A stretch of DNA of 38,179 bases, taken from contig CALMOM010000045.1 in NCBI GenBank assembly GCA_937873305.1, forward strand, positions 17,675 to 55,853, in the 5' to 3' direction. This document shows positions 17,520-37,648 of this stretch, piece by piece; the stretch's first letter is position 1; the number at the start of each line of letters is the position of its first letter. Source of the stretch: an uncultured Terriglobus sp. (GTDB taxonomy: Bacteria; Acidobacteriota; Terriglobia; Terriglobales; Acidobacteriaceae). The position numbers and the translations under genes were made by a program. The notes under the pieces were generated by a model. That model ran no database searches. It was not told the origin of the DNA and saw only the letters and a program-made list of their open reading frames with translations.

Positions 17520-19154
17520 ATGCAACGCCGTGATGTTCTGAAGCTGTCTCCGCTTGCCCTTGCCCCGGGTGCCTTTGGGTACACAGCACTCGCGCAAACG
17601 CCGAAGCCGAATGGCGGCGAACTCCTCATTAATGTTCTGACGTATGGCGCGGCCGGCGATGGCAAAACTCTGGACACACCAGCCATCAACAAGGCCATTG
17701 CAGCGGCCGCCGCGGCGGGTGGCGGGACGGTGGTGTTTCCGGCGGGCAACTACCTCTGCTTCACCATTCGTCTGCAATCCTTTGTCGATCTTTACCTGTC
17801 CAGCGGATGCACCATTACAGCTGCGGATTCGCCCAAGCCGGGCGAGGCGACCGGCTACAACGGCGGTACCTACGACGCAGCAGGACCCGCGCAGCCGTGG
17901 GAGGCGTACCAGGATTACGGCCATAACCACTGGAACAACTCGCTGATGGTGGGTGACGGCATCCACGATTTCTCCATCAGTGGCCCAGGGCTCATTCACG
18001 GCAGAGGCCTTTCACACGGCAGTGCTTCCAGCCGCCCGGGCATGGTCTCGTTCATCGCGGAGCAGGCGGGTGTCGGCAACAAGGCGATCGCGCTCAAGAA
18101 CTGCCGCAATGTCCTCCTGCGCGACTTTTCTGTGCTCAAAGGTGGGCACTTCGCAATTCTTGTTACCGGCGTCGACAACCTGACCATCGACAACCTGACC
18201 ATCGACACCGACCGCGACGGCATGGATATCGATTGCTGCCGCAATGTGCGCGTGTCGAACTGCACCGTCAACTCGCCCTGGGACGACGCCATCTGCCCGA
18301 AGTCGAGTTACGCGCTTGGGTACGCTCGCTCCACGGACAATGTCACCATCACCAACTGTTTTGTGACGGGAACGTACCAGCTCGGCAGCGTAATCGACGG
18401 AACATGGAAGAAATTTGACGAGCAAAACCGCGCGCCGCGCAATGGGCGCATCAAGTGCGGGACCGAGTCGAATGGGGGCTTTCGCAACATCTCCATCTCG
18501 AATTGCGTGTGCGAGGGATCGAAGGGGATCGCGCTCGAGACCGCCGATGGCGCGACCGTGGAAGACATCGCCATCACCAACATTGCCATGCGCGACACAA
18601 GCGATGCCCCGCTCTTTTTACGGCTGAACCGCCGCAATCGCGGGCCGAGCGAAAGCATGCGGCTCGGAACGCTACGCCGGGTGGTGATCTCAAACATCGT
18701 CAGTCACGACTCCGCGTCGTCGACTTCCTCCGTGTTGTCCGGCATCCCGTCGAACCTGATTGAAGATGTGAAGCTGACGAACTGCTACTTTGGCCACGCG
18801 GGCCTGCCAACCGTACTCCCCAACGGCAAGCCCTTTCCGGACTGGCGCAGCATACAGGTACCGGAGATCGAGGAGGCATACCCTGACTTAAACAGGTTTG
18901 GGCCCACGTCCTGCAACGCCTTCCTTGTTCGTCACCTAAAGAACCTGGAGATGTCGCACGTCGAGATCGCGCCAGCTGTTGCTGATCCGCGTCCAGCGTT
19001 CTGGCTTGAGGATGTTCACCGGGCCGACTTCTTTGCTGTCACCGCACCCGCACAGGCGAACTTTGAGTTGCGTAATGTCACCGATCTCCGCATCTTCTGG
19101 TCCAGGGCCACAAAGGACACAGCACTGGCGAACGTGGTCCGTCAATCTATTTAG
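17520..19154 (+). CDS. GH28 family (polygalacturonase-like) protein, Tat-exported
   Basis: 544 residues. The start MQRRDVLKLSPLALAPGAF is a twin-arginine signal with cleavage near ALAQ. The body is a right-handed parallel beta-helix of the GH28/pectate type: VLTYGAAGDGKTLDTPAINK and GGGTVVFPAGNYLC are the usual opening. Possible catalytic residues are DTDRDG (229-234), the paired Asp255-Asp256 in SPWDDAICPKS, and RIK (310-312). The normal GHG motif is replaced by GTYQLG (284-289). GH28 enzymes hydrolyse alpha-1,4-galacturonan or rhamnogalacturonan; the altered motif makes the exact linkage uncertain. It follows the GH27 gene by 60 bases, with AGGAC before the ATG. A close paralogue lies at 24240-25922. 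Confidence 0.88.
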   Translation: MQRRDVLKLSPLALAPGAFGYTALAQTPKPNGGELLINVLTYGAAGDGKTLDTPAINKAIAAAAAAGGGTVVFPAGNYLCFTIRLQSFVDLYLSSGCTITAADSPKPGEATGYNGGTYDAAGPAQPWEAYQDYGHNHWNNSLMVGDGIHDFSISGPGLIHGRGLSHGSASSRPGMVSFIAEQAGVGNKAIALKNCRNVLLRDFSVLKGGHFAILVTGVDNLTIDNLTIDTDRDGMDIDCCRNVRVSNCTVNSPWDDAICPKSSYALGYARSTDNVTITNCFVTGTYQLGSVIDGTWKKFDEQNRAPRNGRIKCGTESNGGFRNISISNCVCEGSKGIALETADGATVEDIAITNIAMRDTSDAPLFLRLNRRNRGPSESMRLGTLRRVVISNIVSHDSASSTSSVLSGIPSNLIEDVKLTNCYFGHAGLPTVLPNGKPFPDWRSIQVPEIEEAYPDLNRFGPTSCNAFLVRHLKNLEMSHVEIAPAVADPRPAFWLEDVHRADFFAVTAPAQANFELRNVTDLRIFWSRATKDTALANVVRQSI

Positions 19155-24239: not shown

Positions 24240-25922
24240 CTACAGCGTTTCATTGGCGGCGTTTGCAAGCGCAGTGTCCTTTACCGCCCTGGACCATGCA
24301 ATGCGAAGGTCTGTGACTTGGCGCAGTGCAAAGTTTGGTTGCGGTGGCGCGGTGACCGCGAAGAAGTCTGCACGGGAGACGTCTTCCAGCCAGAAGGCGG
24401 GACGCGGGTCTAGGTTTGAAGGCGCGATCTCGACGTGTGACATCTGCAGGTTTCGCAGATGTCGAATGAAGAAGCCGTGGCAAGGAGTGGGCCCGAAGAA
24501 CTGCAGTTCCGGGTAGCCCGTTTCGAGTTCAGGCACGTGCAGTGTTCGCCAGTCCGGCATGGGCTTTGTCGTTTCACCAAATCCTTCGCCCGCCCGGTCA
24601 GGCAGACCACGATGACCGAAGTAGCAGTTGGACAGCATTACGTCTTCGATCCTGTTGTCAGGAATACCGGAAAATACTGACGCGGTCGAGGATGCGGAGT
24701 TGTACGAGACAAGGTTGGAGATGGCGACGCGACGCAACGTGCCCGGGCGCGCCTGCTCTTTGGGGCCGCGGTTGCGACGGTTCAGCCTTAGGAAGAGCGG
24801 CCCATCGACCGTATCGCGAAGCGCGATGTTCGAAATGGCAATGTCTTCGAGAAAAGCGCCGTCGCTCGTTTCAAGCGAGATTCCCTTAGAACCCTCACAC
24901 ACGCAGTTCGAAATGGCGATGTTGCGGAACCCACCATTCGACTCTGTGCCGCACTTGATCCGGCCTTGTCGCGAGACGTGCACGTCAGGCGCGAACTTCT
25001 TCCAGGTTCCAGCCAGCACCGTGCCGAGTTCGTACGTTCCTGTCACGAAGCAGTTCGCGATCGTCACGTTGTCGGTCGAGCGTGCATACCCCAGAGCAAA
25101 GCTGGATTTCGGACAGATGGCGTCATCCCACGGAGAATTGACGGTGCAGTTCGACACGCGCACATTTCTGCAGCAGTCGATGTCAAATCCGTCCCGGTCC
25201 GTGTCTACGACTAGGTTGTCGATGGTGAGGTTATCCACGCCCGTTGCAAGCAGAGCGAAGTGACCGCCTTTCAGAATGGCAAAGTCTTGCAGTGTGACGT
25301 TGCGGCAAAGTTTAAGCGCGATGGCCTTGTTGCCAACACCGGGTTGTTCTGCACGGAACAGCACGCCAGGGCCGCGCAGCGGGTCGGGAGCTGTGCCCGC
25401 GCGCGCTCCATTGCCGCAGGAGAGACCCCTGCCGTGGATCAATCCCGGGCCGGTGATGGAAACATCGGCGAGTCCCTCGCCATAGATCAGCGAGTTAGGC
25501 CAGTGGTTGTGACCGTAGTCCTGGTACGCCTCCCACGCTTGCGGCGGGCCTGCAGCGTCATAAGAACCGCCGTTGTAACCTGTGGTGTCGCCGGGCTTAG
25601 GCGAATCGGCACCGACAATGACACAGCCTGCGGACAGGTAGAGGTGCAGCCTGTCGCACAGGCGGATCGTGAAGCAAAGGTATATTCCACTTGGAAATAC
25701 CAGGGTTCCACCACCTGCGTCTCGAATCGCAGAGATGGCCCGATTGATCGCGGGCGAGTCCACCGTTTTCCCATCGCCCGTGGCACCGTAATCACGCACA
25801 TTAACGAACGCGGCGGCAGCATTCGGCGCAGCAGGGGATGCAAACGCAGACGTAGCAGCAGCAACCGCGCCGGATGCTGTGGACAAAGAGAATTTCAGCA
25901 CGTCCCGCCGGCTTTCGTTCAT
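24240..25922 (-). CDS. Second GH28 family (polygalacturonase-like) protein, Tat-exported
   Basis: 560 residues, a clear paralogue of the protein at 17520. A twin-arginine signal (NESRRDVLKFSLSTASG) precedes NVRDYGATGDGKTVDSPAIN. Active-site candidates are DTDRDG (240-245), Asp266-Asp267 in SPWDDAICPKS and RIK (321-323); the usual GHG is again replaced, here by GTYELG (295-300). Long stretches are identical to the paralogue, such as CRNVRVSNCTVNSPWDDAIC and RIKCGTESNGGFRNI, with an insertion of about eight residues near 170-185. It probably acts on the same pectic polymer with somewhat different specificity. It is upstream of the GH2 gene in the same direction. Confidence 0.88.
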   Translation of the reverse strand: MNESRRDVLKFSLSTASGAVAAATSAFASPAAPNAAAAFVNVRDYGATGDGKTVDSPAINRAISAIRDAGGGTLVFPSGIYLCFTIRLCDRLHLYLSAGCVIVGADSPKPGDTTGYNGGSYDAAGPPQAWEAYQDYGHNHWPNSLIYGEGLADVSITGPGLIHGRGLSCGNGARAGTAPDPLRGPGVLFRAEQPGVGNKAIALKLCRNVTLQDFAILKGGHFALLATGVDNLTIDNLVVDTDRDGFDIDCCRNVRVSNCTVNSPWDDAICPKSSFALGYARSTDNVTIANCFVTGTYELGTVLAGTWKKFAPDVHVSRQGRIKCGTESNGGFRNIAISNCVCEGSKGISLETSDGAFLEDIAISNIALRDTVDGPLFLRLNRRNRGPKEQARPGTLRRVAISNLVSYNSASSTASVFSGIPDNRIEDVMLSNCYFGHRGLPDRAGEGFGETTKPMPDWRTLHVPELETGYPELQFFGPTPCHGFFIRHLRNLQMSHVEIAPSNLDPRPAFWLEDVSRADFFAVTAPPQPNFALRQVTDLRIAWSRAVKDTALANAANETL

Positions 25923-28178: not shown

Positions 28179-29990
28179 TCAGACCACGTTCACGGTCAAC
28201 GTGACGGTTTGTGCGGTGCCGCTGCTGGGCGTGATCGTGACGGGTACGGTGTACGTGCCGGCGGCGGAGCTGTGGGCGTTCTTGTCGCCACCGCAGCCGC
28301 TGACACCCAGCACCACGGCCAGTGACAGCAACACCGGCAGCTTCCATAGCGCAATGGAGCGAAGATTGCGCGCACGCCGCCGTGCCAGCCCCAAACCGCT
28401 GAGCAGAGACAAGCCCAGTACCGCGTACTCCACCTGCGGAGTTGCAGGCAGTAAGGGCAAGGTGGGTCTGCGAAGTGCTGCCACATTGGCTGTGCCGATG
28501 GTAATGTTTGTGCTCACAGCAGCGCCGGTGATGGTGAGCGATCCGGTGGCGACGCTGCACTTGAGGCCGGTGACGCTGCCGCAGGCCACGGTGAAGCTGC
28601 CTGTAAAGCCACCGACTGGCATGATGGTGAGCGTGGAAAAGCCGCTGTTGCCGCGCGGTATGCCGATGGTGGTGGGTGAGAGCGCAGCGGTGTAGCCGGG
28701 TGCAACCACGGTGACGGTGACATTTGAGGAAGTGGCGCTGCTGAAGCCGTTGACTCCGGCAAAGGTAGCCATCAGCGAGTGCGATCCGGCAGCGAGCGCG
28801 GTGGTGGTGTATGTGGCAGTTGCGACCGTGGTGGTGCCGCTGACCAGCGAGGTGCCGAGGACGGTGGTGCCGTCGCGGAAGGTGACGATGCCGGTGGGAG
28901 TGCCTGCCGTGCCGGTAACCGTTGCGGTAAGCGTAACGCTGCTGCCCAGGTTGGTGCTGCTGGCAGAACTGGTAAGCGAGAGGCCAGTAATGACTGGCGT
29001 GCCCAGCAAACGCAGGGCAGCCGCTGCAATCAGGCTGTGGCCATAGGTGGTGGGGTGCAGGTCATCCCAGAAGAGGTACGTGTCCGGGTTGACTGTGGCA
29101 TTGCCCTGCGAACTGGATTTGACGTTGGCGAAGCCGTAGCCGATGGGCGGACCGACGACCGTGCTAAACAGCGTATAGATGTCGAGCTGGTACAGCCGCA
29201 GCGTTCTGCCTGCGGCTGCCTGTTGCACCTGCGCGAGCGCGGCGGCCAGCGCCTGGTTGAAGCCTGCCGCGGCAGCCGTGGCCTGCGCGGATGCCGCGGC
29301 GCTGCCGTTCAGCCGGGGGATGAGGCCGAGGGGCGGCAGGTTCGGTACCAGGATGTCGGTGGCTCCGGCGGCGATCAATGCCTGCACGATGCTAGCCTCG
29401 CGCATAGCGGCGGTGATGATGTCGGCGGTACTGGTGGCATTCAAGAGATCGTTCGCGCCGCCCCATACCACGTAAAGCGTGCTGCTGTTGATGGTGGGTG
29501 CGCTGGCAAAATAGTCGCTCAACTGCTGGCCCATGTTGTTGACGGTGAACGAGAGGGCATTGCCAGGGCCGTAGGTGAACGGGGAGGTGCCGGTGTTGGT
29601 GGTGGCAAAGCCGTAGGCGTAGTTGCGTCCGCCTGCAAGCGAGTTGGTCACGCTGGGCTTGCTGGCAAGTTGTGCGGCCAGTTGCTCCACCCACACGCCG
29701 GTGTAGTTGCGCGCGGAAGGCAGTGTGTCCAGGCCGTCGGTGAAGCGGCCGTTGGTGTATCCGGTGAGCGGGCCGGGTACCTGCGCGCTGAATCCGTATT
29801 TGGCGTTGCTCTGGTAGGCGTCGTTGCCGGTGTCGGAGAGCGAGTCGCCGATGACGACGACGGAGGTATACGCCTGCCCCAAGGCCATACGGCCAGCGAT
29901 GAGGAGTACCAGTGCAAGCAGGAGCAGAATGCCTGACGGTGGTGCGCAATGTTGCGTACGTTTTATGGGTGCTGCATTGAGTGTGGTCAC
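28179..29990 (-). CDS. GDSL/SGNH esterase with Ig-like domain and unusual C-terminal tail
   Basis: 603 residues from the GTG at 29990, which has TTGGAG seven bases upstream and leads into a signal peptide (SGILLLLALVLLIAG, cleavage near ALGQA). ATG 30026 and TTG 30041 are weaker alternatives. SGNH blocks are clear: VVIGDSLSDTGND (nucleophile Ser50), GGAND (177-181) and DDLHPT (309-314, Asp and His of the triad). Family members hydrolyse esters. A Big_3_5 Ig-like domain follows (335-430), then a beta domain (431-500). The end has a hydrophobic segment (about 521-536), RRRAR (537-541), a second hydrophobic segment (546-562), VSGCGG with Cys566, and a beta-rich end. The same tail layout occurs in the protein at 34784. 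Confidence 0.85.
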   Translation of the reverse strand: MTTLNAAPIKRTQHCAPPSGILLLLALVLLIAGRMALGQAYTSVVVIGDSLSDTGNDAYQSNAKYGFSAQVPGPLTGYTNGRFTDGLDTLPSARNYTGVWVEQLAAQLASKPSVTNSLAGGRNYAYGFATTNTGTSPFTYGPGNALSFTVNNMGQQLSDYFASAPTINSSTLYVVWGGANDLLNATSTADIITAAMREASIVQALIAAGATDILVPNLPPLGLIPRLNGSAAASAQATAAAAGFNQALAAALAQVQQAAAGRTLRLYQLDIYTLFSTVVGPPIGYGFANVKSSSQGNATVNPDTYLFWDDLHPTTYGHSLIAAAALRLLGTPVITGLSLTSSASSTNLGSSVTLTATVTGTAGTPTGIVTFRDGTTVLGTSLVSGTTTVATATYTTTALAAGSHSLMATFAGVNGFSSATSSNVTVTVVAPGYTAALSPTTIGIPRGNSGFSTLTIMPVGGFTGSFTVACGSVTGLKCSVATGSLTITGAAVSTNITIGTANVAALRRPTLPLLPATPQVEYAVLGLSLLSGLGLARRRARNLRSIALWKLPVLLSLAVVLGVSGCGGDKNAHSSAAGTYTVPVTITPSSGTAQTVTLTVNVV

Positions 29991-30128
29991 TGGGGAGCTC
30001 CAAGACTGCACCTGCGCGGCACGCATGTGCGGCAAATTCAATCCGCTACTGTCGGTTGTGCGAGACTACGCGGGAGTATGCCCCAGGCACTCGCGGTTGG
30101 GCAAGGAAAACTTGAGAGGAGGGTGCCG

Positions 30129-30602
30129 ATGTGTATCGCAGACGCAGGGATCGCGGCGCACTTGCCGACAGTGCAGGCGAAGGACCTGAACGGACGCGTG
30201 CTCGCGCTGCCGAAGGATTTGCCGGGTGAGCGGACGATTGCCATTGTCGCGTTTCAACGTGAGCAGCAGCCCAACGTGGACACGTGGACGCGCGGCCTGA
30301 AGCTGCTGGAGAGCAGCCTGCCGTGGCTCGAGCTGCCGGTGATCGACGACCCCGGCGCGGTGGCGCGATGGTTCATCGCCGGTGGCATGCGGCGCGGCAT
30401 CAAGGACCATGCGCTATGGCAACACGTTGTGACGCTGTACACGCGCAAGGCCGACCTAAACCGCGCGCTGGAGATTACGTCGGAGGCGACGGTGTATGTG
30501 TTGGTGCTGGACCGTGAGGGCCGCGTGGTGGAGCGGGTGAGCGGTGACTACTCACCCGCGGCGGCGGAACAGGTGCTGCGGGCTGTGAACCCGCAGCGTT
30601 GA
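30129..30602 (+). CDS. Thioredoxin-fold protein without active-site cysteines
   Basis: 157 residues from the ATG at 30129, which has GAGAGGAGGG six bases upstream; the frame opens earlier (29949) but that part overlaps the divergent gene and has no ribosome site. The pattern VQAKDLNGRVLALPKDLPGE, TIAIVAFQREQQPNVDTWTR, LPVIDDPG and EATVYVLVLDREGRVVERVS matches a thioredoxin-like fold of the redoxin/ATP10-like kind. The only cysteine is at residue 2, so peroxidase or disulfide activity is unlikely. There is no signal peptide. It is divergent from the GDSL gene and ends three bases from the stop of the second TonB receptor, which is convergent. Function unknown. Confidence 0.7.
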   Translation: MCIADAGIAAHLPTVQAKDLNGRVLALPKDLPGERTIAIVAFQREQQPNVDTWTRGLKLLESSLPWLELPVIDDPGAVARWFIAGGMRRGIKDHALWQHVVTLYTRKADLNRALEITSEATVYVLVLDREGRVVERVSGDYSPAAAEQVLRAVNPQR

Positions 30603-30605
30603 CGG

Positions 30606-33600
30606 TCAGCGGCTGAAGCGCAGGGCGAACTGCGCGACGCGCGGATCGGTGACGGTGCTGGTGATGCTGCCAAAGGCGGTGGTGCCGTAGGCTCCGCTTG
30701 GCTGTGCGAAGCCGGGTGTGTTGAGTACGTTGAAGAGTTCGGCGCGGAACTCGAGGTTAGTTTTTCCGCGGAGCGTGGTGTTCTTGATGAACGACACGTC
30801 GCCGTCGCGGTAGGCGGAACCGCGCACCGGGTTGCGCGAGGCGTTGCCGTACTGGAACTGCGCCGTGGTGCTGAAGGCGGCGGTGTTGAAGAAGTGCGCG
30901 GGCGTGCGCTGGCTCGGTGCCAGTGTAGGGCTCATGCCTCCGATCAGCATGGGCCGCTGCGTAGCGATGCCCGCGAAGCTGTTGGTGTTGGTGGACTGTG
31001 TGACGGTAACGGGCATGCCGCTCTGCATGGTGAGGATGCCCTGCACCTGCCAGCCGCCCAGCACACCGGTGGCAAGGCCGTGGCCTGCGAATTTGGGCAG
31101 CGCGTACACGGTGCTGAGCGTGAGCAGGTTGGGGATGTCGCCGCTCGATGAGTCACGTTCCAGGTATGGGCGGTAAGCGTCCGCGCCCACCAGCGAGCTG
31201 GTGTTGGGCGACGACAGCACGGTGGACGAAAAGACGGACGACGCGTCGTCGATCAGCTTGCTGTGCGTGTAGCTGAGCAGCAGTGACAGGTTGTGCGACA
31301 GGCGCTGCTCCACCTTGGCTTCGATCGCGTTGAAGTTCGTGGTGCCGGTGTTGTTGCGGTAGATGCTGACGTTCTGGAAGCGCGGATAGGGCTTGAGCAG
31401 CTGTGCCGCCGCGACGGTCTTGCCGCCGATGGAGCTGCTGGTGGGCAGTTGGCCGTAGTACGGGTTGGCTACCTGCGTGGTGAGCGATGAGCCCTGCGCC
31501 AACTGCGCCGCGGTCAGCGAGTTGAAGTTGCTGTCTGGGATGCCCACGTGCACCACGTGCGAACCGACGTAGGCCACGTCGAATGACAGGTTGTTGGTCA
31601 CGGCGCGCTGAAAGGCGAGGTTCCACTGCTCCACGTAGCCGGAGCCGGCCTTGCGCGTGGCGGTGTAGACGCTCTGGCCCAGGCCCGCGTTGGGTGTCAG
31701 CGCGATGGAGGCGACCGTGGGGCCGTTCGACAACTTGAACGGCGCGTTGTAGCTGTCGGTGGTTTTCTGCTGCACGTTCTGGATGAAGGGGTACTGCGGC
31801 GTGGTGAACGGCGTGGTGATGCCGCTCTGGTCGATGAAGACGATGCCGAAGCCGCTGCGGATGACGGTCTTGGTGTCAGGCGAGTACGCAAAACCGACGC
31901 GTGGACCGAAGTTGTCGTAATGCAGTTCACGCGCGCTGCGCGAGTTGCCGTTGACGCCCAGGTAGTCCAGTTGCTGCGTGGCCAGGTTGAAGACCGCGCC
32001 CTGGTTGTGCGTCTCCGTGGAGGGCCGGTGCAGGGTGTAGCGCACACCCGCGTTGACCACGAGGTTGGGCAGCGCCTTCCAGTCGTCCTGCACGAAGAAC
32101 TCGTGGATGTAGTCGCGCGGGCGGATGGTGCGCGCCTGCAGGTCGATGGAGAACGTGTCCACCTGGCCCAGCAGGAAGCTGGCCAGCGCGTTGCCGCCGG
32201 TGCTGACAGCCGTGCCCGTGGCCGTGGTGGTGTTGGTGCCGGTGGTGGTGAAGGCGAAGCTGCCGGTGGGATTGGGCGGTGCGATGGCGTTCAGCTCGTA
32301 GCGGCGGCCATCGTAGCCTGCCTTGAAGCTGTGCGCACCCCTGGTCCACACGATCGTGTCGTTGATCTCGCCCACGGCGGTCTGGTAGCGGGCAAAGGTG
32401 CTGGCTGTCTGCCCGAGCTGCGCGAAGCCGGTAAGGGTAAACAGCGGCAGCGCGTTGTTGAAGGCGGCGTTGGTTGGAATGCCAGGGATGTTCAGCGACG
32501 AGCCCGCGGTGCCCGGCAGCGTGGTGCCCGCCTGGGTGTTGCCGCGGCGCGTGTAGCCGATGCGGAAGTCGTTGACCACCGAGGGTGAGAAAGTGTGCGT
32601 CTCGTTCAGGACGATCTGCTGGCCGGTGATGTGCGTCAGGCCGCTGACATTGCCCGCGCCCAGCACAGAGCCGGTGATGACGCCGGAGCCGTCGGGCAGC
32701 GGCGTGGCTGGCTGCTCCACCTCGTGGTAGTAGGTGTAGCGGCTAAAGGCGCGGTCGTGCAGGCCTACCGCGCCGTCCACGCGGGTGTCGAACTGCTGCT
32801 GGTGGTCGTCGTCATTTGCCACGCGGGTGTAATTGTTCGCGGCACCTGTGGAGGTTGGTAGCGGGAAGCGCGCCAGCAGCGCGACGGCGGCGGGGTCGAG
32901 CGGAATGTTGATGGTGTCGTTCGGGAACTCGGCGCGGGCGAGTCGTCCGTTCACCGTGGCGGTGGTATTGGGATTGTAGATTTTCGAGACGCCGGTGAAG
33001 ATGCCGTTGCGCTCGGCCACAGTGGGCACCGTGCTGATGCGGGTGACGCCGATGCGCTGCAGGATGCCCTGGTAGTCGCCAAAGAAGAACAACTTGTCGT
33101 GCAGGATGGGCGCGCCCAGCGTGGCCCCGAACAGGTTGCGGCGATACTCCGGCTTGCGCGCGGTAGTCGTGGCGAAATAGTTGCGGGCGTTCAGCGCCTC
33201 GTTGCGGAAGTACTCGAACAGGCTGCCATGGATCTCGTTGCTGCCGCTGCGCGTGGCCACGTTGACCACGCCGCCGTTAAAGCGGCCAAACTCGGCGGGC
33301 ACGTTGTTGCTCTCGATGGTGAATTCCGCAATGGAGTCGAGGATGGGGAAGAACGCGACCTGACCGGGTTCGGGCTGCAGGGCGCTGATGCCGTCGAACA
33401 GGTATTCGTTCGTGCGCGGACGGCCACCGTTGATGCGCGGCAGCAGGGTTCCTGGCGGCAGCGACACGCCGGGTGCCAGCTGCGCCAGCTGGATGAAGTT
33501 GCGCGTGTTCAGCGGCAGGGCTTCAATGGTGGCACCGGGAATGGTGGTCTGGATGTTGCTGGTCTGCGACTGCAGGAAGAGCGCGTCCGCGTTGACCGTG

Positions 33601-33965
33601 ACGGTATCCGTGCCCGCGGCGGCGAGCGGCAGGTCGAGACCAATGGTTTGGCCGGTAGCGATGGTGATGCCATTGCGCTGGTACCCGGCGAAGCCGCTGT
33701 CTGTCACAGCCACGCTGTACTGGCCGGAGACGAGTTGTGTGAAGTCATACACCCCATCGCCCGTGCTAACAGTGGACTGCTGGATGCCCGTGGCGGTCTG
33801 CGTGAGCGTGACCTGCGCGCCGGGCACGCTGGCACCGGATGTATCGGTGACGCGGCCCTTGAGTTCACCGGCGATTTGTGCGTGGGCAAGGGCAGGCGAA
33901 AGCGTACAGGCGGCAAGTGCAAGCGCGGAAAGGCGCGGAAGTGGCTGCGAGAGCTTGAACGGCAT
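30606..33965 (-). CDS. Second Oar-type TonB-dependent receptor
   Basis: 1119 residues. A signal peptide (LSALALAACTLSPALAHAQ) precedes a carboxypeptidase-regulatory-like domain (ELKGRVTDTSGASVPGAQVT through GFAGYQRNGITIATG, about 33-105). The plug region is recognisable (EALPLNTRNFIQLAQLAPGV, AEFGRFNGGVVNVATRSGSN) and is followed by the barrel (for example YDNFGPRVGFAYSPDTKTV, SFDVAYVGSHVVHVG), ending VAQFALRFSR. It is shorter than the receptor at 12164 and not adjacent to glycosidase genes, so no substrate can be suggested. TonB/ExbBD genes are not in the window. It is 89 bases downstream of the small zinc-ribbon gene in the same direction. Confidence 0.92.
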   Translation of the reverse strand: MPFKLSQPLPRLSALALAACTLSPALAHAQIAGELKGRVTDTSGASVPGAQVTLTQTATGIQQSTVSTGDGVYDFTQLVSGQYSVAVTDSGFAGYQRNGITIATGQTIGLDLPLAAAGTDTVTVNADALFLQSQTSNIQTTIPGATIEALPLNTRNFIQLAQLAPGVSLPPGTLLPRINGGRPRTNEYLFDGISALQPEPGQVAFFPILDSIAEFTIESNNVPAEFGRFNGGVVNVATRSGSNEIHGSLFEYFRNEALNARNYFATTTARKPEYRRNLFGATLGAPILHDKLFFFGDYQGILQRIGVTRISTVPTVAERNGIFTGVSKIYNPNTTATVNGRLARAEFPNDTINIPLDPAAVALLARFPLPTSTGAANNYTRVANDDDHQQQFDTRVDGAVGLHDRAFSRYTYYHEVEQPATPLPDGSGVITGSVLGAGNVSGLTHITGQQIVLNETHTFSPSVVNDFRIGYTRRGNTQAGTTLPGTAGSSLNIPGIPTNAAFNNALPLFTLTGFAQLGQTASTFARYQTAVGEINDTIVWTRGAHSFKAGYDGRRYELNAIAPPNPTGSFAFTTTGTNTTTATGTAVSTGGNALASFLLGQVDTFSIDLQARTIRPRDYIHEFFVQDDWKALPNLVVNAGVRYTLHRPSTETHNQGAVFNLATQQLDYLGVNGNSRSARELHYDNFGPRVGFAYSPDTKTVIRSGFGIVFIDQSGITTPFTTPQYPFIQNVQQKTTDSYNAPFKLSNGPTVASIALTPNAGLGQSVYTATRKAGSGYVEQWNLAFQRAVTNNLSFDVAYVGSHVVHVGIPDSNFNSLTAAQLAQGSSLTTQVANPYYGQLPTSSSIGGKTVAAAQLLKPYPRFQNVSIYRNNTGTTNFNAIEAKVEQRLSHNLSLLLSYTHSKLIDDASSVFSSTVLSSPNTSSLVGADAYRPYLERDSSSGDIPNLLTLSTVYALPKFAGHGLATGVLGGWQVQGILTMQSGMPVTVTQSTNTNSFAGIATQRPMLIGGMSPTLAPSQRTPAHFFNTAAFSTTAQFQYGNASRNPVRGSAYRDGDVSFIKNTTLRGKTNLEFRAELFNVLNTPGFAQPSGAYGTTAFGSITSTVTDPRVAQFALRFSR

Positions 33966-34054
33966 GCTACGACTCTATGCGAGTCAAGCCGTATATCCAA
34001 GTGCAGGCGTGCGCCAGTTCAGTCTTCGTCAGCCACGGTGAAGCCCAGGAGCGG

Positions 34055-34285
34055 TCAGCTGTCCTTGCGATAGAGCATGTTGCGGATGGCATCGCGGCGG
34101 GCGGCATCCATCTCGCTCTTTTCCTTGCGTTCGTCGGCACCCATGCCGGACTTCTTCGCAGCCTCGGCCGCGGCGTCCTGCTCTTCCAGCGTGCAGTCCA
34201 GGCAGCGGTTGGCAAAACCGGGTTTGCCGGGCTTCAGTTCAAACTCTTCACCACACACGGCACAGGTCTTAATTGGGAAAGGCAT
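34055..34285 (-). CDS. Small zinc-ribbon protein, 76 residues
   Basis: MPFPIKTCAVCGEEFELKPG contains CxxC (Cys8, Cys11), and NRCLDC gives a second CxxC (Cys28, Cys31), so a four-cysteine zinc ribbon is likely. The remaining half is highly charged and helical (EEQDAAAEAAKKSGMGADER, DAARRDAIRNMLYRKDS). The longer open frame to 34609 is rejected because only this last part looks like protein. No strong ribosome site is visible before the ATG. It might bind nucleic acid or protein; the family is not recognised. Confidence 0.7.
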   Translation of the reverse strand: MPFPIKTCAVCGEEFELKPGKPGFANRCLDCTLEEQDAAAEAAKKSGMGADERKEKSEMDAARRDAIRNMLYRKDS

Positions 34286-34783
34286 AGTACGAACTCGATG
34301 ATAAATCCTGCGGGGAAGGCCCGCAGCGCGCAACACTGAAAGAGGGCGTCGGGTCAAAGCGGGAGCGACGCTCTGCACCTCCGCACCCAACTGTAGGAAG
34401 AACATAGCGCCATCCGGAGGCTCTGCCCCATGTACAACATCCTGCGCTACATCAGCCTCTTCCTGCTGTTGGCCTTGGCCACCGCAGCATAGCCGTGCAG
34501 ATGCACCCTTTGCAGGCGGGCGGCATGCCTTCCTGCTGGTGCACGCGAGAATGGCAAGCTGGTTGACCCGGGCGACAAGGTGAACAGGGCCGTGGGCGCG
34601 CCAGGCCATGCGCCTCCAGGACGACTCGGTGGATACTGCACGCGGACAACCTGCGGCCCATGGCTCCGAATGAGCTTTCCAGCTGACAGTGACCGATTGT
34701 TAAGCCCCATGCCGCTTGAGCAGAACGCGACGGCGTGCACGCGAGGGTCGTGGTCAGGCTATTCGCGTGCACAGATAGCTCTG
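34286..34783. other. Gap with one tiny ORF and possible gene debris
   Basis: The 498 bases between the zinc-ribbon gene and the Ig-repeat gene hold no full-length gene. A 20-codon ORF (34430-34492) has a ribosome site. After it, the plus-strand reading ENGKLVDPGDKVNRAVG (around 34550-34600) looks protein-like but is broken by frame changes, so this may be the remains of a secreted-protein gene. No RNA gene was recognised. Confidence 0.35.
34430..34492 (+). CDS. Possible 20-residue hydrophobic peptide or truncated signal peptide
   Basis: GGAGG lies nine bases before an ATG that opens MYNILRYISLFLLLALATAA and then a TAG. The peptide is a short hydrophobic helix with one positive residue, like a signal peptide or a small membrane peptide. 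Either a genuine small protein or the surviving start of a decayed gene; the sequence does not decide. Confidence 0.3.
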   Translation: MYNILRYISLFLLLALATAA

Positions 34784-37405
34784 TTAGTTGCCGCCAGTCT
34801 CCGTGAGTGTCAGGTCGCTGTTGTGGCTCAGCGCGCCGGAACTGGTGGTCAGCGACATGCCATACGTCAGCGTCTTCCAGCCGGAGCCGCAGCCTGACAC
34901 CCCACTCATGAGGACGGCCGCCGCCAGCAGCAGGAGCAGGAGCTGTCGCGCTCTGCGCCTGGACTGCAGGCTGACCGGCAGCACGAGCAGCGCCAGCAAC
35001 AACTTGCCGCCTGTCTTCAACCGCGAAATCTTCAGCAGGTCCGGTGGAACGCTCGGGCCGTCCGCCGTCTTGACGGTGAGGGTAACCGTGGTCGTCCCGC
35101 TGCCCGCCGCAACTGTCGCAGGTGCAAAAGTGACCGTGGACCCGGGCCGTGCGTTGGCCAGCGCCAGCGTGATGGCCGATGGCATGGCCGTGCCGCCCAG
35201 CGGCGCTAGCGTGAAAGTGTAGGTGGCCGCGTTGGAGTGCGGAATGGTGGTGGCCCCGGAGGCTAGGGTGAGCGTGTAGTCCATCACGTTCTCCACCACG
35301 CTTTGCGAGGCGGACGGGCCATAGTAGTTGTCGCCACTGTAGGCCGCCGTGACCGTGTGCTGACCGAAGAGCAGGGTCGAAAGCGAAAGCGTGGCAGAAC
35401 CGTTAACCAGCGGTGCCGTACCCAGCACCGTGGTGCCTTCGCTGAAGGTATAGGTGCCGGTCGGAACCGCATCGGAGACACCATCAGCGCGTGCTGTAAA
35501 CACCGCCGGATTCAGCAGGAAGACCGCCGGTGCTGCCTCTGTGAGCGTGGAGCTGGACACTACCTGCACGTATAGCGTGGTGGTCGCGCTCTGCGAGTCG
35601 AAGTTGGCATCGCCGCTGTAGACGGCGGTAATGGGGTGCGGCCCGTTGGTGTAAATCTTGGGCGCGGCGGTCGCCGTGCCATTGGTGAGTGGATAGCTCG
35701 TCGTTGTGCCGTCCACCGTGATGGCCACAGTGCCCGTGGGCGTGGGCGCATTGGTGCCGCCGCTGGCCGTGAACACGATGGCCGAAGCATGGCCCGTGTA
35801 CACCGGGTTGGGCTGGGCCACCACGCTGACCACGGCGGCGGGATACACCGTGACCGTGGTGGTGACGTAGCGCGAGTTGTAGTACGGGTCACCCGCGTAG
35901 CTCGCGGTGATGGTGTGCGTGCCCGCCGCCAATCCCGAGAGTGTCGTGGTGGCGGTGCCGGAGTGCACGACGACCGTGCCAAAGGTGTTGGTGCCTTCGC
36001 TGAACGTGACCGCGCCAGTGGGCGTGGGGTAGGTGGAACCAGCGGGCGTGGCCAGTGGTGCAGTCATGACCACGGCAGCGTTGAACTTTGCCGGGTTCGG
36101 CGCGCTGGTCAGCGTCATGTCCGGATCGACCTTGGTGATGGCGGCAAAGGTTGACAGGTCAAACAGGCTGAACTCCAGCACTTTTTCCTGCTGCGACAGC
36201 GTGCCGCTGGTGCACTCCGCTGGGAAGATGGTGCCATGGCTGCTGCTGACCGGGCTCACGTGGTACTCGTTGTATAGAACGCGCCCATAGGTCCTGCCGG
36301 TGCCCGCGCCCACCGGCGTGTCGAACGATGCCTGAATCGGCAGCTTATTGCTGTTCAGGTTGATCCACTGCTGAGCATTGGTGCCCAGGCTACCCAGCGA
36401 GGCGAACACGTTAGTGATGCTGAGTTGGCCCAGCGTGGTGGTGGCACCCAGATTCTGCAACCAGGCCGCCAACGTGGCACCGATGGTGAAGCTCTGGTCG
36501 ATGGTCGCTGGTCCGGCGGGAGCGGTGGCATTGTCCGCGGCCCAATTGAAGGTGTTGTTGGAAAGCGCCGTGTTGCCCTTGAGCCAGGCGTGGCTGTGGT
36601 GATTGATAAAGGCGCGGCCGCCATTGTTGACGAACGAGGCAAAGTTGGCCTGCGCTGCTGGGGTCGTCACGTTGGTCTGGTCGGCACTCTGGCAGGCGAA
36701 CAGCAGGAGGTCGAACGTGTTCAACTGCGCAGTGTCGTTCATCAGGGCGGCTTCACCCGGCGTGCTGCTGTTAATGGCAGAGCCGCCCAGGCCGGTGGTC
36801 GTGCCTGCGCGCACGCCGCCGCCCACGTACAGGTTGATACGGCCGCCATCGGTGAAATTGGTGAACTCTGCATCGTCCATGCCCACCTTGCGCAGTACGC
36901 ACTCCGTGGTTTCCACCGAGCCGGTTACGATGCCGATGTGTGGAATGTAACCCTCGCTCTTGTTCCTCGGAAAGCGCGCGAACTTGTCGCCGGCAGGGTC
37001 AGGCGGCACGTTGTCCTGGCAGGCCGTCACGCTGCGGATGACCAGCTGCCGCTGCCACTTGCCGCTCTGCACCACCAGCGGAATGGACGTGCCCGCGGGC
37101 GCGTCGGTCAGCGTGAAGCTGCCGTCGTAGGCGGTGGTGGTCTCGGTCAGCTGGTCGGTAGGGCGCAGGTCCACCGTGGTCACGCCGTCGGGAATCTTGA
37201 CGGCGCCGCTCGGGCCAGGCACGTACACCAGCACGTCGGGCAGCGGGTCCAGCCCGTTGGGCGAGTACACCACGCCGCTGATGGTCGTGGTGTTCCTGCC
37301 GTTGGCGCAGTTGGTAGGCGTGGCATACGTCTGCGCCATCGCCGGTAAGCCGAGCGACAGCAGGGCTACAGAGAGTGAACGGGCAAAACGGCGAAGCAGC
37401 GGCAT
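34784..37405 (-). CDS. Large secreted Ig-repeat (Big_3_5) protein
   Basis: 873 residues from the ATG at 37405 (a GTG at 37414 adds three). A signal peptide (LLRRFARSLSVALLSLGLPA, cleavage at MAQ) is followed by a carboxypeptidase-regulatory-like domain (about 40-120: ISGVVYSPNGLDPLPDVLVY, AYDGSFTLTDAPAG), then a glutamine-amidotransferase-like or binding region (about 180-410: FDLLLFACQSADQ, FASFVNNGGRAFINHHSHAW). Three Big_3_5 Ig-like repeats follow (about 435-525, 526-615, 616-708), each with a variant of HTITASYAGDPYY, then a beta domain (709-790). The end repeats the tail seen in the GDSL protein: hydrophobic segment, RRRAR (816-820), hydrophobic segment, VSGC (836-839, Cys839), 34-residue Thr/Ser-rich end. 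Likely cell-surface adhesin or scaffold; no enzymatic role seen. Confidence 0.75.
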   Translation of the reverse strand: MPLLRRFARSLSVALLSLGLPAMAQTYATPTNCANGRNTTTISGVVYSPNGLDPLPDVLVYVPGPSGAVKIPDGVTTVDLRPTDQLTETTTAYDGSFTLTDAPAGTSIPLVVQSGKWQRQLVIRSVTACQDNVPPDPAGDKFARFPRNKSEGYIPHIGIVTGSVETTECVLRKVGMDDAEFTNFTDGGRINLYVGGGVRAGTTTGLGGSAINSSTPGEAALMNDTAQLNTFDLLLFACQSADQTNVTTPAAQANFASFVNNGGRAFINHHSHAWLKGNTALSNNTFNWAADNATAPAGPATIDQSFTIGATLAAWLQNLGATTTLGQLSITNVFASLGSLGTNAQQWINLNSNKLPIQASFDTPVGAGTGRTYGRVLYNEYHVSPVSSSHGTIFPAECTSGTLSQQEKVLEFSLFDLSTFAAITKVDPDMTLTSAPNPAKFNAAVVMTAPLATPAGSTYPTPTGAVTFSEGTNTFGTVVVHSGTATTTLSGLAAGTHTITASYAGDPYYNSRYVTTTVTVYPAAVVSVVAQPNPVYTGHASAIVFTASGGTNAPTPTGTVAITVDGTTTSYPLTNGTATAAPKIYTNGPHPITAVYSGDANFDSQSATTTLYVQVVSSSTLTEAAPAVFLLNPAVFTARADGVSDAVPTGTYTFSEGTTVLGTAPLVNGSATLSLSTLLFGQHTVTAAYSGDNYYGPSASQSVVENVMDYTLTLASGATTIPHSNAATYTFTLAPLGGTAMPSAITLALANARPGSTVTFAPATVAAGSGTTTVTLTVKTADGPSVPPDLLKISRLKTGGKLLLALLVLPVSLQSRRRARQLLLLLLAAAVLMSGVSGCGSGWKTLTYGMSLTTSSGALSHNSDLTLTETGGN

Positions 37406-37648
37406 ACGCGGCACGACTCAGAAGATGAAATGTTCGACACGCCGCTCTACGGACGGAATGGCTTGTCAGCAGCATACTGCGGTACACCGTGCGACGGGAG
37501 GTGCGGCTTCGCCGATTACGCCACGGCATCGCAACAGCCAGGTCGTCACGTAAATCTTGTGTCAGCCGTCGGGCTCCGTACCTTGGCCGCATAACAGCGG
37601 TCGGGAGTTGTTGCCGGAGCGCAGCCTGTGCCGTGAGGAAGGCTCCAC

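Follow-up and report, generated by a model that had tools for sequence, protein, structure and literature searches.

Can a lipoprotein signal act from near the C-terminus of a protein that carries its own N-terminal export signal? The question is raised by two genes on the reverse strand of the DNA analysed here, a stretch of 38,179 nt from an uncultured Terriglobus sp. that is called the window throughout. A sequence-only reading had claimed that their products, a GDSL esterase and an Ig-repeat protein, end in a tail of common layout, and coordinates and residues both agree with that description. In each protein a β domain is followed by a hydrophobic helix, the sequence RRRAR, a second hydrophobic helix, VSGC and a β end of 34–37 residues. 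We refer to this arrangement as the lipo-invert tail, after the NCBIfam name discussed below.

Two proteins of the window and their tails

The GDSL esterase, with a Big_3_5 domain and the tail, is encoded by an ORF at 28179..30041 (−) and comprises 620 aa from a TTG codon or 603 aa from a GTG at 29990. It matches PF00657 (E 8.5e-21) and PF16640 (E 3e-17), and a Sec/SPI-type signal peptide (..ILLLLALVLLIAGRMALGQ) was read directly from its N-terminal sequence at 29874..29966 (−). Within the tail, helix 1 (residues 535-556; 28374..28439, −) is a predicted stop-transfer helix, read from the sequence and present as a helix of moderate confidence in a structure model. The RRRAR loop lies at 28368..28382 (−), and helix 2, assigned from sequence and model, forms a lipoprotein-signal-like h-region running to VSG at 28296..28349 (−). 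VSGCG occupies 28290-28304 (−), and sequence and alignments place the invariant lipobox cysteine, Cys583, at 28293..28295 (−), leaving 37 residues C-terminal to it.

The Ig-repeat protein (876 aa; ORF at 34784..37414, −) contains three PF16640 repeats (E 1.7e-37), and its N-terminal SPI-type signal peptide (..LSVALLSLGLPAMAQ) was likewise read directly from the sequence at 37331..37414 (−). Sequence and alignment place helix 1 at 34961..35005 (−), followed by the RRRAR loop at 34946..34960 (−) and by helix 2, again a lipoprotein-signal-like h-region to VSG, at 34892..34945 (−; sequence and pattern scan). VSGCG is found at 34886-34900 (−) with the invariant lipobox cysteine, Cys842, at 34889..34891 (−; sequence and alignments), and 34 residues lie beyond the cysteine. 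Cys583 and Cys842 are the residues previously numbered Cys566 and Cys839, the numbers having changed with the use of upstream start codons.

An internal lipoprotein-signal-like pattern, defined as a basic run, 13 uncharged hydrophobic residues and A/G/S-C, was present in 2 of the 27 ORFs of the window, exactly these two proteins. The same pattern occurred 11 times in 688 ORFs from 800 kb of one complete relative. The only C-terminal occurrences with a β end after them were three further lipo-invert-type tails, while most of the others resembled membrane proteins or N-terminal signals preceded by an early start codon. An HMM built from 84 tails, none from the window's own genome, matched exactly the same two proteins within the window (E 5.3e-20 and 6.8e-17). 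Because pairwise BLASTP of the GDSL tail against the Ig-repeat tail is weak, their relationship is visible only via the family. The resemblance of the two window tails is not due to chance.

Elsewhere in the window, closely similar proteins are encoded on opposite strands at 17520-19154 (+) and 24240-25922 (−). They have Tat-like signals (RRDVLKLS and RRDVLKFS) and are probably pectinase-type beta-helix enzymes.

The tail is part of a family modelled by NCBI

The tail had been put forward as uncharacterised and without a described system, which has to be amended. NCBIfam NF058595 (invert_tail; release 20.0) already models it, as "lipo-invert putative C-terminal anchoring domain-containing protein", and our literature search found no paper describing the lipo-invert tail or using its name. 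Measured by the curated cut-off of 37 bits, the GDSL tail is borderline, scoring 38.1 bits as a tail alone, 39.0 in the genome search and 33.9 as a whole protein. The Ig-repeat tail remains under the cut-off (22.9 and 25.9 bits), yet layout and cysteine are common to it and the model. Both window tails show the NF058595 layout of helix, Arg cluster, helix, Cys and short C-terminal β end, with the parts in identical order and the identical cysteine, and the model matches all 34 tails of alignment A3, the window tails among them. With its 113 positions the model begins with the strand that immediately precedes the hairpin, and so covers only part of the interrupted Ig-like domain described below.

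NF058595 was found above cut-off in 21/21 relatives and 0/14 control genomes; at E 0.001 the number of matches in a relative's genome ranged from 3 to 23. Across the phylum it exceeded the cut-off in 49 of 396 genomes, nearly all of them from the window's own family. A pattern scan of contigs from named genomes gave 47 confirmed tail loci, 47/47 in Acidobacteriota, and the same tail is shared by Terriglobus albidus (L082) and genus member G009 (L015). The 40-row tail alignment was too variable for scanning contigs, and beyond Acidobacteriota the distribution is drawn from the 14 control genomes and one pattern scan. The tail is widespread in the window's bacterial family and order, and NCBI has already modelled it as a putative anchor.

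All tails read out form the C-terminal end of their protein. The hosts are mutually unrelated and include a kumamolisin-type protease, GH39, sortilin/BNR-type proteins, a nuclease/phosphatase with LTD, and proteins with SBBP repeats or Ig repeats, to which the window adds a GDSL esterase. Among hosts with an upstream stop, 27 of 29 have an export-signal-like N-terminus. With both the HMM and NF058595 the tail recurs on unrelated acidobacterial proteins. Neither a restriction to few proteins nor a lack of cysteine conservation, which that reading had named as counting against it, was seen, the hosts being unrelated and the cysteine invariant. At the level of sequence, these data support a recurring C-terminal module on unrelated exported proteins that combines an invariant cysteine with a lipoprotein-signal-like segment.

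The hairpin interrupts a single Ig-like domain

The β domain before the hairpin and the β/Thr-rich end after it had been described as separate parts of the tail. A spliced HMM, structure models and fold alignment identify them instead as halves of one Ig-like domain. In the GDSL protein the first part of the split domain covers residues 450-520 (28482..28694, −), assigned from seven model strands and a VIA alignment, and the last two strands lie at 28182..28259 (−). In the Ig-repeat protein the first part covers residues 712-785 (35060..35281, −) by tail alignment, with an HMM match from residue 714, and alignment and HMM match place the linker and closing strands at 34787..34888 (−).

For the spliced HMM the insert (median 71 residues, 60-93) was cut from 59 tails and the halves were joined. 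When it was run against tail loci, it aligned over its full length and without gaps to uninterrupted tandem copies that lie directly upstream of tails in the same proteins, for example in L056, L057, L058, L067 and L073 (E down to 1e-14). Structure models cover the GDSL tail and the tail of one relative. The AlphaFold model of the GDSL tail has strands within residues 1-71, helices at 89-110 and 121-133, and strands again at 149-159 and 165-173. Its strands, including the seven of the first part, mostly have pLDDT >90 (95-97 for E149-159 and E165-173), while the helices are lower and of moderate confidence only. The second tail, from another genome, has the identical plan. In VIA, model residues 3-174 align to contiguous Ig/Fn3 domains of ~100 residues, bridging an insert of ~75 residues. 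Examples are 8jmw 594-700 (Z 12.6, rmsd 2.1, 101 aligned) and a sialidase Ig-like domain at 405-502 (Z 12.4), and Foldseek agrees on an Ig/Fn3-like fold. A Pfam search with the insert-removed domain gave no family above cut-off.

Because the spliced HMM, the models and the structural alignments agree, the hairpin with its cysteine is, by sequence and modelling, an insert that separates two of the strands making up one Ig/Fn3-like sandwich. Spliced HMM and fold results rule out two separate domains flanking the hairpin. Since the hairpin sits inside one Ig-like domain, "hairpin anchor" and "lipidated end", which had been offered as alternatives, are not mutually exclusive. In a plain hairpin anchor the two helices in the Ig-domain loop would retain the uncleaved protein in the inner membrane, and the cysteine would have a structural role, being neither acylated nor a cleavage site. 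Two helices and a positive loop suffice to anchor, and the split domain could close without cleavage. What bears on this explanation is the behaviour of the cysteine.

In subdivision-2 acidobacteria (L100, L104, L105, L107, L109, L110, L114, L118) the same GTPAGTYTLTITGTSG end was observed after an ordinary Ig-like repeat. These ends are without hairpin or cysteine, and could be either ancestral or released forms.

The cysteine and its surroundings

The cysteine is the sole invariant column among 40 diverse tails. Across 94 unique tails its preceding residue was always small (G 54, A 23, S 17; 94/94 G/A/S), as against a G/A/S share of 34% in the rest of the hydrophobic segment. Position +2 was Gly in 74/94, and no charged residue was found from −14 to −2 in 85/94. 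On average the loops between the helices contained 4.2 basic and 0.1 acidic residues; from the last basic residue to the cysteine the median distance was 18 residues. A PS51257-like lipoprotein pattern fits 80 of the 94 tails, and both window tails fit the lipoprotein-signal-like pattern scan. Among the N-terminal lipoprotein candidates of a relative, a small and noisy set, 24/28 were PS51257-like with a median basic-to-Cys distance of 15. Position −3 was L/V/I in 48% of tails, looser than the textbook lipobox; the strict lipobox pattern was found in 37/94 tails and in a similar share of the native candidates (11/28 of the same noisy set). The linker after the cysteine is mostly Gly/Ser-rich. 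In a subfamily of short Ig proteins (L103, L120, L173, L176, L206, L230, L250) an aromatic-rich linker (CNPRYNYINHHPP, CAARYWYNHRPP) replaces Gly/Ser.

Conservation of this kind could arise from the search itself, so 41 family genomes were searched with a profile in which the cysteine and its neighbours at −1, +1 and +2 were masked. Tails were recovered in 39/41 genomes, and all 90 loci read (90/90) had a cysteine at the end of helix 2 with G/A/S before it. Of the 30 best loci, some had also gone into building the model; of the other 60, fetched separately from below each genome's best match, most had not. Masking of the cysteine and its neighbours rules out search bias as the source of its conservation. 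In a separate Cys-blind pattern scan, the cysteine was present in 36/36 tails with a hairpin and absent in 8 tails without one.

This coupling of hairpin and cysteine fits the prediction for a lipoprotein signal and not that for a plain anchor. A plain hairpin anchor has no need for an invariant cysteine, an obligate small residue before it or a mostly Gly/Ser-rich linker after it, and within the tail no partner cysteine is invariant. We regard the plain anchor as unlikely.

Processing enzymes across relatives

A different reading of the same hairpin takes helix 1 and the Arg cluster as a CTERM-type sorting tag, cut near helix 1 by an intramembrane protease or a sortase-like enzyme, with or without lipidation of the cysteine. 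A helix followed by an Arg cluster resembles the ends of PEP-CTERM and MYXO-CTERM proteins, other CTERM tags have dedicated enzymes (PMC11980579, PMC3237569), and freeing the body from the inner membrane would need an additional cut. Exosortase, rhombosortase and additional Lsp copies, the candidate enzymes searched for, are not distributed as this reading would have it; a CPBP-type or other protease would be a further candidate. Exosortase is absent from four tail-rich relatives, G003, G008, G009 and G012, which carry 23, 11, 15 and 9 tails respectively, and dependence of the tails on exosortase is thereby ruled out. Rhombosortase, the enzyme of the GlyGly-CTERM system, did not exceed the TIGR03902 cut-off in any of 21 genomes (0/21), and an extra Lsp paralogue occurs in one genome only. 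A sorting tag of this type appears rather improbable. As a side observation, PEP-CTERM proteins vanish together with exosortase in G003, G008, G009 and G012, where lipo-invert tails remain abundant, while G000, G001 and G004 have 16-19 PEP-CTERM matches each.

The ordinary lipoprotein enzymes are nearly universal, Lgt being found in 21/21 relatives and Lsp in 20/21. Lsp is present as one copy in 19/21 relatives and as two in G009, while one genome, 70% complete, yielded no copy; on these counts an Lsp dedicated to the tails was rejected. A second, more divergent Lgt (for example G000:C158:23248-23955) occurs in 13/13 genomes of the Terriglobus group and in 1/8 sister-family genomes, mostly scoring 68-95 bits where the main copy scores about 130. 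Because sister-family genomes bear tails, mostly without a second Lgt, that copy is not required for the tails, and a dedicated Lgt was rejected as a requirement.

A model for anchoring by the tail

The explanation that we favour, and consider reasonably probable, is that the tail is a membrane-anchoring module, in which a stop-transfer helix and a lipoprotein signal lie within a loop of the final Ig-like domain and the cysteine is acylated by Lgt. Many secreted proteins of soil acidobacteria are probably fixed to a membrane in this manner, via the fat-modified cysteine of the tail. Since the body is exported, a signal peptide near the C-terminus can work only after the chain has come back into the cytoplasm. 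Export would begin through the N-terminal signal peptide and be halted by helix 1, so that the Arg-rich loop would remain cytoplasmic. Helix 2 would then re-start export in an N-in/C-out orientation, the one needed by Lgt and Lsp, and the cysteine would emerge on the outer side of the inner membrane, where it would be acylated. With the last two strands, the Ig domain whose first part precedes the hairpin would become complete. From the features above we infer both the topology and the acylation, the latter most likely by Lgt.

A cut by Lsp before the cysteine is plausible. If it takes place, it would leave two pieces, the body containing the Ig core and a short chain bearing the lipid, joined through the shared β-sandwich. 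The split Ig domain thus offers a concrete way for two chains to remain associated. That Lsp cuts inside the Ig-like domain, giving many two-chain proteins per genome in which the acylated C-terminal chain holds the body by strand complementation, is possible though somewhat doubtful; the cut itself, the cohesion of the two chains and the destination membrane all belong to the conditional part of the proposal. The hairpin of helix 1 and helix 2 would stay with the body after the Lsp cut, so an outer-membrane destination would need a further cut. Lsp cleavage alone would not free the body from the inner membrane, and this is the main gap in the proposal. To our knowledge there is no precedent for Lsp processing a signal peptide downstream of another membrane helix.

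If the cysteine is acylated, the tail would be a C-terminal lipid anchor for an already exported protein that relies on the ordinary lipoprotein enzymes without a dedicated sortase. This would then explain how Terriglobia, which are abundant soil bacteria, anchor many exported enzymes and repeat proteins. New in the present analysis are the split Ig-like domain, the test of the cysteine without search bias and the exclusion of exosortase.

Comparison with known anchoring and sorting systems

The tail looks similar to PEP-CTERM in that helix 1 is followed by an Arg cluster. It differs from PEP-CTERM in being without a PEP motif, in having helix 1 and the Arg cluster away from the C-terminus, and in being independent of exosortase; the window proteins gave no match to TIGR02595 at E 1. 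A possible sister arrangement of the hairpin was seen at L049 (G000:C28:56386-56598). There a second hydrophobic segment comes after an end resembling PEP-CTERM (TPEP, helix, RKR) and closes with an SPI-like site (TLSHAQG) in place of a lipobox; the contig stops at this point.

MYXO-CTERM (TIGR03901), of the myxosortase system, is likewise a C-terminal module on many exported proteins per genome, with an invariant cysteine, a membrane helix and an Arg cluster, and its cysteine has been proposed to be acylated (PMC11980579). Its order is Cys, helix, Arg cluster and end, with no defined lipobox and an inverted topology (PMC11980579). In the lipo-invert tail, by contrast, the second helix precedes the cysteine, the orientation is that of a normal lipoprotein and 34-65 residues follow. 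The window proteins had no NCBIfam match to TIGR03901 at E 1, and assignment of their tails to MYXO-CTERM was rejected, as the cysteine comes after helix 2, 34-37 residues lie beyond it and there is no Arg-cluster terminus.

With bacterial lipoproteins processed by Lgt, Lsp and Lnt, the tail shares a basic run, an uncharged h-region, [GAS]C and a Gly/Ser-rich linker after the cysteine. Unlike theirs, its signal is internal, close to the C-terminus (the cysteine being 34-64 residues from it) and placed after another helix, in proteins that also have an N-terminal SPI-type signal.
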